DNA of 64,000 bases from an uncultured Erysipelotrichaceae bacterium (GTDB lineage Bacteria; Bacillota_I; Bacilli_A; RFN20; CAG-826). The stretch is taken from positions 313,457-377,456 of the forward strand of contig OMWW01000001.1 in NCBI GenBank assembly GCA_900314865.1, read 5' to 3'. Of the stretch, positions 32,601 through 39,147 are shown piece by piece. Both the position numbers and the translations under genes were made by a program. The notes beneath the pieces were generated by a model. That model was not told the DNA's origin, searched no databases, and saw only the letters and a program-made list of their open reading frames with translations. Position 1 is the stretch's first letter; the number at the start of each line of letters is the position of its first letter.

Positions 32601-32606
32601 TATAAT
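32601..32606 (+). promoter_or_regulatory. -10 element of the secreted nuclease gene
   Basis: TATAAT, about 23 nt before the ATG at 32630, which has its own Shine-Dalgarno (AAGAGG). No clear -35. This gene therefore has a normal short leader, unlike 3151 and 35578. Confidence 0.5.
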
Positions 32607-32629
32607 TGATATGCTTAAGAGGTAATATT

Positions 32630-35539
32630 ATGAAAAAGAGATTTCTCATATCAATTGTTTTTAGTGCGTTAAGTATGACCGCACTTCCTTTAGTGTTTTC
32701 TAACGTTAAAGAAGAAGTGGAAGTGACTTATGCATCTAGTCATAATCAACATTTAGATAATTTTAGTGATTACACCTATAGTGGTAGTTACTATGATTCA
32801 ATTACTGCGGATGGAGAAGGACTTAATGGTAGTTTAAGAAAGCAACTAGCAAGTTTAGTTTTTCCTGCTGAATGGCCATCTTATAGTGGCTCTAGTGAAA
32901 ATTCTTTAGCGGTCCTTTGCCAACTCGCTGATGAAGACCCTGAAAACAAAACTAATATGATTTATCTCTATTCTAGAGATTCTGTCACCAAGAACTCCGC
33001 AAGTACTTGGAATAGAGAACATGTTTGGCCTAAGAGTTTGTCTAATGGAAACTGGGGAACTGGTAGAGCCGGCACTGATTTACTCCATCTTAGACCAACT
33101 TATAACACGATTAACTCCACAAGAAGTTCGATTCCTTTTGGGGAAGTTGAAAGTGGAGAAAAACTTACTACTAAGGATGGTATGAATTTTGGTTATAAGG
33201 GTGGCGGATATTTCATGCCTTTAGATGCAACTAAAGGTGATGTTGCTCGTATCATCATGTATGTTTGGTCAACCTATGTTGATTATTATAGTAACCTTCC
33301 AGATATCACAAAGGTTTTTGAAAGCTATGACACTTTATTAAGATGGCACATGGAAGATAAACCAGATGCTTTAGAGGGACATAGAAATGATTTCTGTGAA
33401 ACTTCTATTCAAAAGAATCGTAACCCATTTGTTGATCATCCTGAATATGCTTGGATGGTGTTTGGCGAGAAAGCTTCTAAGAGTGTCGTTGACGCTTGTA
33501 AAGATGTTTATCCAGGCAATAACGCGACAGTAACCGCCTTAAATATCGAATCTTTACCAAATAAGACTACTTATTATATCAATGAAAATTTAGACACTAC
33601 TGGTATTAAAGTTACCGCGACTTATGATAACGGCGATGTTAAAGATGTTACTACTAAAGTAAGCTATAACGTTTATAAGCTTGAAACTTTAGGAACTCAA
33701 ACTATCAAAGTTTCTTTTGGTGGAAAATATACTTCTTTTAATGTCACTGTTAAAGATTATGAACAAGTCGCATTAACCTCAATTAATGCATATTTCAACA
33801 CTGATCATTTCTATGAAGGTGGTTCATATTCAATTTTAAAATCCTATCTTCCAACTGACGCTTATCCTTATCCAACATTTAAATATTCTTCAAGCGACAT
33901 TGAAGTTGCCTATTTTGATGTATATGGAACTTTAAAAGCAGTTAAACCTGGCAAGACCACAATCACTGCGATTGGACGTCAAAATGATATTGAACTTACT
34001 AATTCTTTTGAAATCACCATTGAAGAAAAACCAGTTCCAAAACTAAGTGAAATCTATAACATGAAGAAAGGTGACTCTATTAGTTGCTATGCTTTATATA
34101 TGGGCGCATATCAAACCACTAAAAACGGAATCTTTATTGGGGACGGAGAATATGCGACTTTAATCTATGGATATAATGAAGCTCCAATTAATCAATGGAC
34201 ACCTTATGAAACTTATCTCCATGTCAGTGGCACGGTTGATATTTATAACGGCCTTTATGAAATAAAGGAAAGCACTGTTAAGGTTGTTTCTAGTGAAGTT
34301 GGAGTGAAATATGTGAGCCCTGTTGTTCCTTATGTTGTTGATGGAGAAGAAAACGAAGAACAAGATTTAACTATTTGTTCTCGTCCAACTGTTATTACTG
34401 GTAAAGTCAAATCCCTTAATGGTGAAATTAGTGCTACAACAGAAGTTACAGTTACTATGGAAGTTGGTGAAAGCACGATTGATGTCTTTATTAAGAAGAA
34501 TACTGGATTAGATTATGATGCGCTTAAAGCCGCTCTTGTGGTTGGTGAGACTGCAAGTGTTCGTGGATTTATGGGTGTCTATAATTCTAAATTCCAAATT
34601 GTTTTACCTTCTGTGTTAGATAAAGTTGATACAGTTACACTTTCTGAAACAAGTGTTGAGTGTTTAGTTGGTGATGTTTTCCATCTTAACGCGACAGCCT
34701 CTGATGGTGGAGAAGTTATGTGGTTTGTTAATAACGATAACTTATCTATTTCTGATGGTGAGTCTACTAACAGTAAATATTTCACCGCTAATAAAGTAGG
34801 TAGTTCTATCATTACCGCTCGTAGAATTATTAATGATTTTGAATACACTGCGACATGTGTTGTTACAATTACTGAAGCTGAACCAGTTAAATTAGATGCG
34901 ATTGAAATCATAACTTTACCAACTAAACTTGAATATAACGTTGGTGATGAATTAGATCCAACTGGTATCACTGTTATTGCGTTCTACACTGATGAAGACT
35001 ATAACAAAGACGTCACTGATGAAGTCACTTATGATGTGACTACATTTGATGAAGTAGGTTTTATTACCGTTACTGTTAGTTACACTGATTTAGGAAGTAC
35101 TAAAACTGATAGTTTTGAAGTTACTGTTAACTTTGTTGAAAAAGTACTTCAATCAATTAAAATTGATTCTCTACCTGATAAGACAGAATATAAAGTCGGC
35201 GAATCTTTAGATATTACTGGTATCTTAGCAACAGCGAATTTCACCGATGGAACTTCTGAAGGCATTGATGCGAACGATTTACATGTTGATGAATACACCT
35301 TCACAAGCGCTGGTGAATATGAGATTGAAGTTTCTTATACCTATAAAAGCGTTACTAAATACGCAACCTTTAAAGTTACTGTGAAAAAGGATGAAACTCC
35401 TGTTACACCTACTCCAGTAAAGAAAGGATGTAGTGGAGATATTAACTCTACAAGCATTATTCTTTCTGTTTTATCTGGAGCATTCTTACTTTCTTTATTA
35501 GGTGTTTTAATCTTAAGAAGAAAAAAAGTTAGCAAATAA
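32630..35539 (+). CDS. Secreted endonuclease I-family nuclease with Ig-like domains and C-terminal anchor
   Basis: 969 aa. Signal peptide (MKKRFLISIVFSALSMTALP, cleavage probably after TYA). Residues ~35-310 are an endonuclease I/NucM-type domain: NREHVWPKS (catalytic His), GTDLLHLRPTYNTINSTRS. Then bacterial Ig-like modules (a 'LxxLPxKTxYxxxExLDxTGIxV' type repeated three times), a BIG2-like module and an OB-fold-like module near 470-560 (CYALYMGAYQTTKNGIFIGD). The end is proline/threonine spacer, KKGCSGD, a hydrophobic helix and RRKKVSK. Start chosen at 32630 because of AAGAGG; an earlier TTG at 32606 lies inside the -10. Likely degrades extracellular nucleic acid at the cell surface (inference). 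Confidence 0.9.
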   Translation: MKKRFLISIVFSALSMTALPLVFSNVKEEVEVTYASSHNQHLDNFSDYTYSGSYYDSITADGEGLNGSLRKQLASLVFPAEWPSYSGSSENSLAVLCQLADEDPENKTNMIYLYSRDSVTKNSASTWNREHVWPKSLSNGNWGTGRAGTDLLHLRPTYNTINSTRSSIPFGEVESGEKLTTKDGMNFGYKGGGYFMPLDATKGDVARIIMYVWSTYVDYYSNLPDITKVFESYDTLLRWHMEDKPDALEGHRNDFCETSIQKNRNPFVDHPEYAWMVFGEKASKSVVDACKDVYPGNNATVTALNIESLPNKTTYYINENLDTTGIKVTATYDNGDVKDVTTKVSYNVYKLETLGTQTIKVSFGGKYTSFNVTVKDYEQVALTSINAYFNTDHFYEGGSYSILKSYLPTDAYPYPTFKYSSSDIEVAYFDVYGTLKAVKPGKTTITAIGRQNDIELTNSFEITIEEKPVPKLSEIYNMKKGDSISCYALYMGAYQTTKNGIFIGDGEYATLIYGYNEAPINQWTPYETYLHVSGTVDIYNGLYEIKESTVKVVSSEVGVKYVSPVVPYVVDGEENEEQDLTICSRPTVITGKVKSLNGEISATTEVTVTMEVGESTIDVFIKKNTGLDYDALKAALVVGETASVRGFMGVYNSKFQIVLPSVLDKVDTVTLSETSVECLVGDVFHLNATASDGGEVMWFVNNDNLSISDGESTNSKYFTANKVGSSIITARRIINDFEYTATCVVTITEAEPVKLDAIEIITLPTKLEYNVGDELDPTGITVIAFYTDEDYNKDVTDEVTYDVTTFDEVGFITVTVSYTDLGSTKTDSFEVTVNFVEKVLQSIKIDSLPDKTEYKVGESLDITGILATANFTDGTSEGIDANDLHVDEYTFTSAGEYEIEVSYTYKSVTKYATFKVTVKKDETPVTPTPVKKGCSGDINSTSIILSVLSGAFLLSLLGVLILRRKKVSK

Positions 35540-35577: not shown

Positions 35578-36915
35578 ATGGATATCAAAGTATATAACTC
35601 TTTAACAAATCAAATTGAAGACTTCAAAACTCTAAAAGAGAATGAAGTATCAATGTATGTCTGTGGACCTACAGTCTATAACTATCCTCATATTGGTAAT
35701 ATGAGACCAGTGGTAGTCTTTGACGTCTTCAGAAAATTTCTTTCCTATATTGGCTATAAAGTCACTTATGTCTCTAACTTTACTGATGTTGATGACAAGA
35801 TTATTAAAGAAGCCAAAAAAGAAGGTAAGAGTGAAAAAGAGCTAACTGAATTCTTTATTAATGAATTTAAAAAAGCCACTTTAGCTATTGGAAGTGATAT
35901 TCCTTCTATTACTCCTAAAGTGACTGAATATATTGAAAAGATTATTTCTTATGTTGATAATCTAGTCAAAATTGGAGCAGCCTACATAGTAGATGGTGAT
36001 GTTTATTTTAGAGTGTCCAAGATTAAAGATTATGGCGCTCTTTCTGGAATCAACGTAGAAGATCTTAAAGTAGGCGCCAGAATTGAAGAGAATAGTCAAA
36101 AAGAATCTCCTCTTGATTTTGCTTTATGGAAGAAAACAAGTGAAGGAATCAACTGGCCATCTCCTTGGGGAAATGGTAGACCAGGATGGCACACGGAATG
36201 CTGTGTGATGATTGATACAATCTTCCCAAGTCATTATATCGATGTCCATGGTGGTGGCTATGATTTGAAATTCCCACATCACGAAAATGAAATAGCACAA
36301 AGCGAAGCCACTCACGGCAATAAAATAGCTAAATATTGGATGCATAATGCATTTATCAATTTTGGTAATGAAAAGATGTCTAAGAGTTTAGGCAATGTCG
36401 TTTATGCAAAAGACATGATTGAAAAATACGGTGGAGCAGTTACTAGACTCGTTATTCTTAACGCTCACTATCGTCAACCTGTTAATTTCACTGATGAAAC
36501 CGTTAACGCTGCTATTCAAGAAGTTAACAAGATGCAAATGGTGGTCCGTCAACTAGCTTTAAAACTTCAAACTGGACCAGTAAATATCGATGAAGGTAAA
36601 CCAACCTACATCGAACCATTCTTACTCTCTTTAGCGGACGACCTTAATACCGCTAACGCTTTAACTGAAGTTTATAATTTAATCAAGCTTGCTAACCAAG
36701 AGATCAGGGTTAGAGATATTAACTATATAAAGGTTAATGATATCTTTAAATCATTAATGGATATGCTTGGTGTTTTAGGTCTTGATATTCCATATGTAAA
36801 AATGGATGAAAAGGATAAAAATCTCTACAAAAACTATTTAATTAGTAAAGAAAATAAAGATTTTGCAGAGTCTGATAGATTACGTCAGGAGCTCATTTCT
36901 AAAGGAATAATGTAG
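35578..36915 (+). CDS. cysS: Cysteinyl-tRNA synthetase
   Basis: 445 aa class I synthetase. CGPTVYNYPHIGNMRP (HIGH-type motif and first zinc Cys), WPSPWGNGRPGWHTECCVM (zinc/substrate Cys), KFPHHENEIAQSEA, and KMSKSLGN. Full length. No Shine-Dalgarno; predicted leaderless start. Followed by rlmB and a SigH-like gene, the same order as in Bacillus (there with two extra genes, mrnC and yacP, in between). Confidence 0.97.
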   Translation: MDIKVYNSLTNQIEDFKTLKENEVSMYVCGPTVYNYPHIGNMRPVVVFDVFRKFLSYIGYKVTYVSNFTDVDDKIIKEAKKEGKSEKELTEFFINEFKKATLAIGSDIPSITPKVTEYIEKIISYVDNLVKIGAAYIVDGDVYFRVSKIKDYGALSGINVEDLKVGARIEENSQKESPLDFALWKKTSEGINWPSPWGNGRPGWHTECCVMIDTIFPSHYIDVHGGGYDLKFPHHENEIAQSEATHGNKIAKYWMHNAFINFGNEKMSKSLGNVVYAKDMIEKYGGAVTRLVILNAHYRQPVNFTDETVNAAIQEVNKMQMVVRQLALKLQTGPVNIDEGKPTYIEPFLLSLADDLNTANALTEVYNLIKLANQEIRVRDINYIKVNDIFKSLMDMLGVLGLDIPYVKMDEKDKNLYKNYLISKENKDFAESDRLRQELISKGIM

Positions 36916-36928
36916 AGGGTTTACGTCA

Positions 36929-37648
36929 ATGAAAAATGAAAACTCTAACATTATTTATGGAAGGAATCCTGTTAAGGAAGCCTTAAGAGCTGGACGTGTA
37001 TTAAAGGTTTATGTCGCTAGTGGTTTTTCTGATAAAGAAATTAACCCTCTTTTTGAGCAATATAAACCATATATTAAAGTCATCTCAAATAACGAATTAC
37101 TTCAAAAAGCAAATGGTGGGGTTCATCAAGGGATTGTTGCTGAAGTCAAACCTTATGAATATCTTGATTTAGATGAAATTATTAGAAGAAGTCGAAAACA
37201 AGAAGTCCCTGTAATCGTTATATTAGATGGAATTAATGATACACATAACCTTGGCGCAATCTTACGTTGTTGTGATGTGTTTAATGTTAGTGGTGTTCTT
37301 TTACCAAAACATAATTCCGTACAACTCAATTCGACTGTAGCTAAAAGTAGTGCTGGAGCGATCAATTATGTTCCTGTCGCTCAAATTGGTTCCATCAATC
37401 AAACACTTCAAAAATTAAAGGATAATGGTTTTTGGATTGTCTCCACTGATGGAAGTGCGAAAATTAGTTACACCGATATCAAGTATGATTTCCCAGTCGC
37501 TTTAGTGATTGGAAGCGAAGGTAAAGGAGTTTCTCCTCTTGTTGTTAAGAATTCTGACTATGTTATCAAGATTCCTCAATATGGACATGTCAATTCTTTA
37601 AATGCTTCAGTAGCAACAGGTATCCTTTTGTCTAGAATTAGAAGCTAA
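36929..37648 (+). CDS. rlmB: 23S rRNA 2'-O-ribose methyltransferase (TrmH/SpoU family)
   Basis: 239 aa. N-terminal substrate-binding domain (NIIYGRNPVKEALRAGRVLKVYV), then the SPOUT knot motifs: LDGINDTHNLGAILRCCDVF, GSEGKGVSPL, NSLNASVATGILLSRI. By family and position (cysS-rlmB-sigH) it probably methylates G2251 of 23S rRNA; other TrmH-type targets cannot be excluded. AGAGGG lies before the start, 13 nt after cysS. Confidence 0.93.
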   Translation: MKNENSNIIYGRNPVKEALRAGRVLKVYVASGFSDKEINPLFEQYKPYIKVISNNELLQKANGGVHQGIVAEVKPYEYLDLDEIIRRSRKQEVPVIVILDGINDTHNLGAILRCCDVFNVSGVLLPKHNSVQLNSTVAKSSAGAINYVPVAQIGSINQTLQKLKDNGFWIVSTDGSAKISYTDIKYDFPVALVIGSEGKGVSPLVVKNSDYVIKIPQYGHVNSLNASVATGILLSRIRS

Positions 37649-37686
37649 CTTAGTAGGTTCTTCTTCCATAATAGGAAGGAGTTCCC

Positions 37687-38299
37687 ATGAATAATAAATT
37701 CGTAAACGTCCCTGACGAAGATTTAATTCGCCCATTTTTAGAAGGGAATACGGAAGTCGTCCACGAACTCGTGAGACGATATCGAAAAAAAATCAGCGGG
37801 TTTGGCTAACAAGATATTTATTCGATATCACGACATTAGTCATATTGAAAAGCCAGATTTAGTTGAAATAGGCTTATATGCCTTTATGGTAGCGGTGAGG
37901 AAATTTAATTTTAAAGGTTCCTTTAGTGCTTATTGGTATGTAATCGCCAATAACGAGATGACGGAGGCTGCATATAAAGAGTCTTTATATCTTTCTAGTA
38001 AAGATCATAGAGAAAGTGTATGTGATAGTGACTATGCGGATATCTCTATGCTTTCAAGTAGTGAGCAATACCATGATCATGTTAGCGATACTCTCGCCAT
38101 TGATGAAGTCATTGATTTTCTGAATAATCCGAAAAACAAGATTTCTCAAAGGGATGTCGCTATTTTTCTTTATTACATCTCTTCTTGTAGTTATCAACAA
38201 ACCGCGAATAATTTTGGTACTTCATATGCTTATGTATATGAGAAAGTAAGAAAGATACGGAAGAAAATCACAAATATTTTGTATAAATCTAAAGATTAA
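37687..38299 (+). CDS. Sigma-70 family factor, SigH-like, split by a one-base frameshift
   Basis: An ATG at 37687 with a strong AAGGAG opens a frame (MNNKFVNVPDEDLIRPFLEG, then NTEVVHELVRRYRKK) that matches the start of sigma region 2 but stops at 37807-37809. The rest of the factor continues one base over, from about 37793 to 38299 (SAGLANKIFIRYHDISHIEK, DLVEIGLYAFMVAVRKF, region 2 core; C-terminal KISQRDVAIFLYYISSCSYQ with a region 4 helix-turn-helix). The join is a run of eight A (37785-37792): one A fewer would give a single ORF of about 203 aa. Position after rlmB supports a SigH orthologue. It may be a sequencing error, a broken gene, or expression by transcriptional slippage or recoding. 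Confidence 0.8.
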
Positions 38300-38325: not shown

Positions 38326-39147
38326 ATGACATCTGTTGAGATTAAAGAACTTGTATTTTCATATAATGATGGAACCCCAATTTTACAAGGTTTAAACCTT
38401 AAAATTGAAAAAGGGGAATATATCTCTATTGTTGGACATAACGGTAGTGGTAAATCCACATTAGCGAAATTAATTGATGGCTTATTACCTTTTGATAAGG
38501 GAAGTATCATTGTTGATGGAGAAGAATTAAACAAGAAGAATCTTCAATCGATCAGAACAAAAATTGCGATTGTCTTCCAAAACCCTGATAACCAATTTAT
38601 TGGGGCTACAGTGGAAGATGATATTGCCTTCTCTTTAGAGAACATGAATGTCCCTCGAGACATTATGCTTAAAGAAGTAAAAGAATATGCTTCTAAAGTA
38701 GGAATGTTTGATTTTTTAAATAAAGAACCAAGTTATCTATCTGGTGGACAAAAACAAAGAGTGGCAATCGCTACCGCGCTTATTAGAAAACCACAAATAT
38801 TAATATTGGATGAAGCAACTAGCATGCTTGACCCAAATGGTAAGAGTGAGATTCTCTCTTTAGTAAGGAGAATGAAAGAAGAGAATCCGGATCTCACCAT
38901 TATCTCAATTACTCATGACATCGAAGAAGCATATTTAAGCGATAGAATCGCTCTTCTTTCCGATGGGCAAATTGTTTTACTCTGCAAACCAAATGAACTA
39001 TTCAAAAATAGAGACATCATTGAGAAATATAATCTTGATGTTCCTTTCATCATTGATTTGAAAAAAGAGCTGAGTTCTTTAGGGTTTAAGGTTGATGATA
39101 AAGACTCTTTAGAAGAAATAGGAGAGATGATATGGCGATCAAAATAA
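38326..39147 (+). CDS. ecfA1: Energy-coupling factor transporter ATPase EcfA1
   Basis: 273 aa. Walker A GHNGSGKST, Q-loop FQNPDNQF, signature LSGGQKQR, Walker B ILILDEAT, switch His in SITHD. One of the two ATPases of the shared ECF module that powers uptake of vitamins (riboflavin, biotin, folate and others) with separate S components, none of which is in the window. Leaderless start predicted; the end overlaps ecfA2 by 16 nt. Confidence 0.95.
   Translation: MTSVEIKELVFSYNDGTPILQGLNLKIEKGEYISIVGHNGSGKSTLAKLIDGLLPFDKGSIIVDGEELNKKNLQSIRTKIAIVFQNPDNQFIGATVEDDIAFSLENMNVPRDIMLKEVKEYASKVGMFDFLNKEPSYLSGGQKQRVAIATALIRKPQILILDEATSMLDPNGKSEILSLVRRMKEENPDLTIISITHDIEEAYLSDRIALLSDGQIVLLCKPNELFKNRDIIEKYNLDVPFIIDLKKELSSLGFKVDDKDSLEEIGEMIWRSK

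Follow-up and report, generated by a model that had tools for sequence, protein, structure and literature searches.

A putative competence sigma factor gene interrupted at a run of eight adenines in two sister Erysipelotrichaceae

Introduction

Can a sigma factor gene whose two halves lie in different reading frames still be in use? The question is raised by a locus downstream of rlmB in a 64,000-nucleotide stretch of DNA (the window) from the 1.365-Mb genome of an uncultured Erysipelotrichaceae bacterium (G000), where the two halves meet at a run of eight adenines (A8). Homopolymers are the usual site of sequencing errors, and most known cases of programmed slippage come from mobile elements, dnaX and secretion genes. 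A first-pass annotation had nevertheless proposed a functional, slippage-gated sigma factor rather than an indel error. The functional and gated parts of that proposal are well supported by the shared A8, purifying selection and a dedicated regulon motif; for the slipping step RNA polymerase is the best fit, closely followed by phase variation.

A sigma factor gene split at a run of eight adenines

The gene starts with the ATG at 37687–37689, and its frame 0 ends at the TAA at 37807–37809 after the 40-codon product MNNKFVNVPDEDLIRPFLEGNTEVVHELVRRYRKKISGFG. The +1 frame is free of stops over 168 codons from 37793 to 38296 and closes with the stop at 38297–38299. If the run is read as seven adenines (A7), a 203-residue protein results. 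Direct reading thus agrees with the initial description of two sigma halves, in order, that need one A to be skipped at the run (Table 1). An internal start for the second half was considered and rejected: the TTG at 37802 in G000 has no Shine-Dalgarno sequence, and the orthologue in the sister species G012, introduced below, has no usable start codon ahead of region 2.

The claimed synteny after rlmB was also recovered, as the order cysS-rlmB-sigma-ecfA is found, and the intact ecfA-type ATPase gene adjoins the sigma gene in G012 as well. The slot after rlmB is the sigH position in Bacillota. The product of the gene just upstream of cysS has 977 residues, with an Endonuclease I domain, bacterial Ig-like domains and a membrane anchor at its C-terminus. 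It is probably secreted and might have a role in DNA uptake or feeding.

Table 1 Coordinates of the features discussed. Plain numbers refer to the window; contig:position refers to the respective genome.
Feature	Location	Strand	Remark
Endonuclease I-domain protein	32606–35539		
cysS	35578–36915		precedes rlmB
rlmB	36929–37648	+	upstream neighbour of sigma gene
Leader hairpin (predicted)	37656–37685	+	GG..CUUCUUCC-AUAAUA-GGAAGGAG..CC; 3' arm contains the sigma Shine-Dalgarno
Sigma gene, part 1	37687–37806	+	frame 0, 40 codons; codons 1–35 are the sigma factor proper
Pre-run stem-loop (predicted)	37753–37783	+	12 bp, one bulge, one internal mismatch; abuts A8
A8 run, candidate frame gate	37785–37792	+	A7 in mRNA (or DNA) would fuse both halves
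Sigma gene, part 2	37793–38299	+	+1 frame, 168 codons and stop; most of region 2, plus region 4
ecfA-type ATPase gene	38326–39147	+	downstream neighbour
Motif, comEA-comEC	G000 C8:4236		
Motif, T2SSE-ATPase pilus operon	G000 C5:72476		
Motif, dprA	G000 C4:14731		
Motif, rpsF	G000 C3:115549		
Motif, ABC transporter	G000 C11:25953		
Motif, comEA	G012 C46:17321		
Motif, pilus operon	G012 C76:14077		
Motif, dprA	G012 C53:2578		
Leader locus L153	G000 C2:197289		competence-type promoter and structured leader of ~140 nt (all five loci)
Leader locus L156	G000 C7:92910		
Leader locus L158	G000 C11:15796		
Leader locus L161	G000 C5:16804		
Leader locus L162	G000 C2:154854		

The joined protein and its family

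Compared with the genes after rlmB in the 17 congeners that carry an intact orthologue, the joined protein is colinear and gap-free at the joint (for example RYRKKSAGLANKIF versus RYRRKAKNLASSLL). With the Pfam region 2 profile (PF04542, cut-off 24 bits) the second half alone scores 23.7 bits, and the joined protein 25.9 bits over profile positions 1–64. The joined protein also reaches 52.5 bits with TIGR02937 (cut-off 42.9), while region 4 alone stays below its Pfam cut-off (14 versus 25.7). In addition, a family profile search of the PDB matched sigma-H (3mzy, 1e-13) and RpoE. By these matches the joined protein is a predicted sigma-70 family RNA polymerase sigma factor.

The label SigH-like, which the locus had been given at the outset, is only partly borne out. 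The position after cysS-rlmB and a probable competence role speak for it, but the NCBIfam SigH equivalog model TIGR02859 is not passed: the G012 protein scores 20.5 bits against a cut-off of 294.8, and that of G000 gives no match at E-values up to 0.1.

Across the genus the sigma orthologues share ~25–47% identity in many pairs whose RlmB proteins are 83–90% identical, a very fast evolution that is unusual for a regulator.

The same interruption in a sister species

A sigma relative is present in 218 of the 279 genomes of the order, and among the full-length matches listed from it, a split at this place is found only in G000 and G012. The latter is the uncultured Erysipelotrichaceae RUG14307, a metagenome-assembled genome (MAG) from the rumen (contig CADBUF010000016.1). 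Its A8 frameshift falls at identical codons, its halves use the same pair of frames, its joined protein is likewise colinear with the intact congeners, and the 22-nt context of the run, GACGATATCGAAAAAAAATCAG, is identical in both genomes. G000 and G012 are sisters with 100/99 support, in a tree built from the neighbouring genes as well as in the sigma tree, and therefore a single origin of the frameshift is the simplest explanation. As only these two species have the A8, its conservation rests on one shared origin.

Comparison of run lengths among relatives, suggested earlier as a way to refute slippage, gives a divided answer: the frame is open and the sequence non-slippery in 17 of the 18 congeners, but the nearest one, G012, is the exception and has the same A8.

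How common are such runs? Pattern searches count 38 A or T runs of eight in G000 and none longer, where ~27 per 64 kb, or ~580 per genome, would be expected from a first-order Markov model built on the window; an A8 at the frame break is therefore no product of chance. These runs are thus ~15-fold rarer than in the model, those of at least nine are absent, and counts are similarly low in four congeners. Of the remaining A8 runs in G000, about 18 sit within intact open reading frames, which rules out an assembly-wide indel problem at A8.

Selection on the split gene

The first part of the gene is 71% identical in amino acids between the sisters over 34 codons, and the second half ~43%, without stops. 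In the second half 215 of 504 nucleotides differ, most frequently at third codon positions. Neutral change would be expected to leave 8.9 stops over the 168 codons; none is present, and none of 2000 neutral simulations (0/2000) ended without a stop. Selection thus acts on both halves, and purifying selection on the downstream one is well supported by this comparison. For the whole sigma protein, the split pair shows an identity of 0.47 at an RlmB identity of 0.90, and pairs of intact genes show 0.35–0.73 at 0.88–0.91. Judged by these identities, the sigma rate in the split pair is no faster than in the intact congeners.

A candidate competence regulon

Searches with region 2 return only RpoD and the split sigma in G012, and only RpoD in G000, where the second half of the split sigma alone falls below detection. 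No alternative sigma factor other than the split sigma was found in the two genomes. Which promoters could it serve? A 30-nt motif, TCGAAAAANNCCCCTNNTATATTTGTGAGG, occurs at 10 sites in G000, seven of them perfect, and at none in a reversed control. It precedes comEA-comEC, a pilus operon with a T2SSE ATPase, dprA, rpsF and an ABC transporter, in addition to five structured-leader copies. In G012 a homologous motif stands upstream of three of these, comEA, the pilus operon and dprA. Both genomes have an intact ComEC (69% identity between the two), although the G000 copy is below the Pfam threshold. Judged by eye, the ATPase and neighbours of the pilus operon look more CpaF/Tad-like than like comG.

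Because of this gene set, and as no other alternative sigma was found, we infer that the split sigma recognises this motif as its promoter; the factor would then probably be a SigH-class competence regulator and the master switch for DNA uptake. The motif is near-invariant across its sites and differs in sequence between the two species; this difference perhaps tracks the fast-evolving sigma factor.

Four of the five structured leaders are followed by a tiny hydrophobic open reading frame (for example MEEFLKFLMILLIIVEIKKALNRRG) with its Shine-Dalgarno within a predicted hairpin. The leaders have no match in Rfam. The encoded products resemble signal peptides or type I toxin-like peptides, apparently controlled by the competence sigma factor.

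Two predicted hairpins

The strong Shine-Dalgarno that had been noted at the locus is indeed present, but it is buried in a predicted hairpin of the leader. In G000 this hairpin has −14.5 kcal/mol, and only 1 of 200 shuffled sequences is equally stable; the hairpin of G012 is likewise matched by 1 of 200. A hairpin that hides the Shine-Dalgarno is predicted in 18 of the 20 sigma leaders examined, of which 19 come from the genus and one from a neighbouring genus; the stem sequences differ. Pairing of the Shine-Dalgarno averages 0.78 in sigma leaders, whereas 38 control genes average 0.37 (p = 1e-7). Many leaders of the genus have a U run between hairpin and start codon. The leader hairpin may also be a terminator.

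The second structure is a stem-loop that directly abuts the run. In G000 it is predicted at −15.0 kcal/mol (z −3.2), which ranks first among the 38 A8 sites; in G012 only a short version is left, at −4.6 to −5.4. A downstream pairing partner of the run was set aside, since the segments that pair with A8 in the two folds are not homologous.

How could the frame be restored?

Selection has kept both an out-of-frame gene and its putative target promoters, so the A8 is presumably bypassed, by slippage on the run or by switching of its length. Irrespective of the route, we regard it as very likely that the frame gate exists and that the gene works. Our favoured route, to which we give about an even chance, is transcriptional slippage. 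RNA polymerase would drop one A at the run in a minority of transcripts, helped in G000 by the nascent RNA hairpin directly before it. The resulting A7 mRNAs would encode the 203-residue sigma factor, and the remaining mRNAs a 40-residue stub. Together with the hairpin over the Shine-Dalgarno, the gate would keep the sigma factor near zero by default, and the competence promoters would fire rarely. We infer from sequence that the one-A loss occurs in RNA rather than in DNA, and the slippage rate and the competence phenotype are deduced in the same way.

The hallmarks that we take to define programmed slippage are found, in two species only: a run of at least eight A's at the frame transition, its retention in the orthologue, and selection on the trans-frame product. 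Slippage by the Escherichia coli enzyme requires at least eight A's or seven T's (PMC6260861). In an insertion sequence of Roseiflexus (PMC5009743), a 5'-adjacent nascent hairpin drives slippage with the deletion of one base, and slippage fits best here, helped by the strong hairpin that lies just before the run in G000. On the other side, this hairpin is weak in G012, bacterial RNA polymerase inserts bases more readily than it deletes them and slips more on T runs than on A runs (PMC6260861), and genome-wide data from E. coli and Buchnera contain few homopolymer deletions and no rescue of frames (PMC5574713).

All the same facts except the hairpin are also accounted for by phase variation, in which slippage of DNA polymerase would toggle the run between an off state (A8) and an on state (A7) and a small heritable subpopulation would make the sigma factor. 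This fits nearly as well as slippage of RNA polymerase. No run class longer than A8 is tolerated in G000, the consensus of a MAG would display the common off state, and switching at poly-A is known from p78 of Mycoplasma fermentans (cited in PMC3711429), while sigH of Staphylococcus aureus is switched on by a rare, reversible rearrangement of DNA (PMC3486894). However, the off state is seen in both species, A8 is short for rapid switching in DNA, and selection as strong as in the always-intact congeners would require frequent use. Phase variation also leaves the strong hairpin of G000 unexplained; we hold it to be possible but rather unlikely.

Might the gene simply be decaying in both species, yielding no product, after an A was recently inserted, either once for both or in parallel? 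The frame is broken in both assemblies at hand, and 17 congeners thrive with an intact one. But the absence of stops and the third-position bias since the split, the normal relative rate of the sigma protein and a regulon motif near-invariant at seven sites all argue against decay. An ancestral break would moreover have left further damage, of which there is none, and two independent recent breaks at one base would themselves imply a hypermutable switch. Decay is therefore improbable.

There is a slim chance of a programmed +1 ribosomal frameshift on CGA AAA AAA ATC, with tRNA-Lys slipping forward. Re-pairing after such a slip would be perfect (AAA to AAA), and run and codon phase are identical in both species. 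Against this, the A-site codon that follows, ATC, is not a stop and not obviously slow, and inspection of the sequence reveals nothing like the spaced Shine-Dalgarno-type element that stimulates the shift in prfB. On the heptamer A_AAA_AAA a ribosome would rather move to the −1 frame; we rejected that route, as this frame runs into unconserved stops within ~25 codons in G000 and 4 in G012.

Finally, an error of sequencing or assembly in both genomes, with a true run of A7, is very unlikely even at a homopolymer, because two independent assemblies concur, the source study of G012 assembled its RUG genomes from Illumina data and made one nanopore assembly separately, and other A8 runs of G000 lie in intact frames.

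Relation to known systems and meaning

Each of the three ingredients is already known on its own: genes read by slippage, phase variation at poly-A, and a cryptic sigH. The closest likeness is to sigH of S. aureus (Morikawa 2012, PMC3486894), a cryptic SigH-class competence sigma factor that is repressed by an inverted repeat and for which contingency behaviour was proposed. There, as here, an upstream inverted repeat probably hides the ribosome binding site, and expression in a minority of cells is a shared trait, here a proposed one. Unlike in our case, the S. aureus gene has an unbroken frame, and a tandem duplication that yields a chimeric gene, instead of an A8 frameshift, forms its second gate.

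For the frame itself, the Roseiflexus transposase (PMC5009743) combines a hairpin 5'-adjacent to the slippery run with a one-base loss that gives the full product; it differs in its U5C5 run and its product, whereas here the run is A8 in a sigma gene, slippage is proposed and the hairpin of the sister is weak. In tssM of Citrobacter rodentium (PMC4256274) a chromosomal gene is interrupted at poly-A and slippage of RNA polymerase restores the frame, as proposed here, but the run is A11, bases are inserted and the product is structural, in contrast to A8, a deletion and a regulator. Mycoplasma genes such as p78 likewise have short coding poly-A runs that toggle the frame, but they encode surface proteins (cited in PMC3711429); here a sigma factor is affected, and the one genome examined from each species shows the same run length, A8. 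Shigella mxiE (PMC5009743) is a transcription regulator whose extended form requires slippage, though an activator of another family and not a sigma factor. Keyword searches of a slippage review and a genome-wide frameshift survey yielded no sigma factor among the known slippage genes, and neither these nor an incomplete wider search of the literature yielded one gated by an A run.

Taken together, a doubly gated competence sigma factor, with a hairpin-hidden start and a frame restored by hairpin-driven loss of one A by RNA polymerase, is a tentative reading that we rate somewhat short of even. If true, it would be, within the literature searched, the first sigma factor made via programmed transcriptional slippage. 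The sole alternative sigma factor found in this small genome, and with it probably competence, would be held behind a selected one-base frame error — a way for a cell to set a regulator almost off. Annotation pipelines would label such genes as pseudogenes and overlook their regulon.
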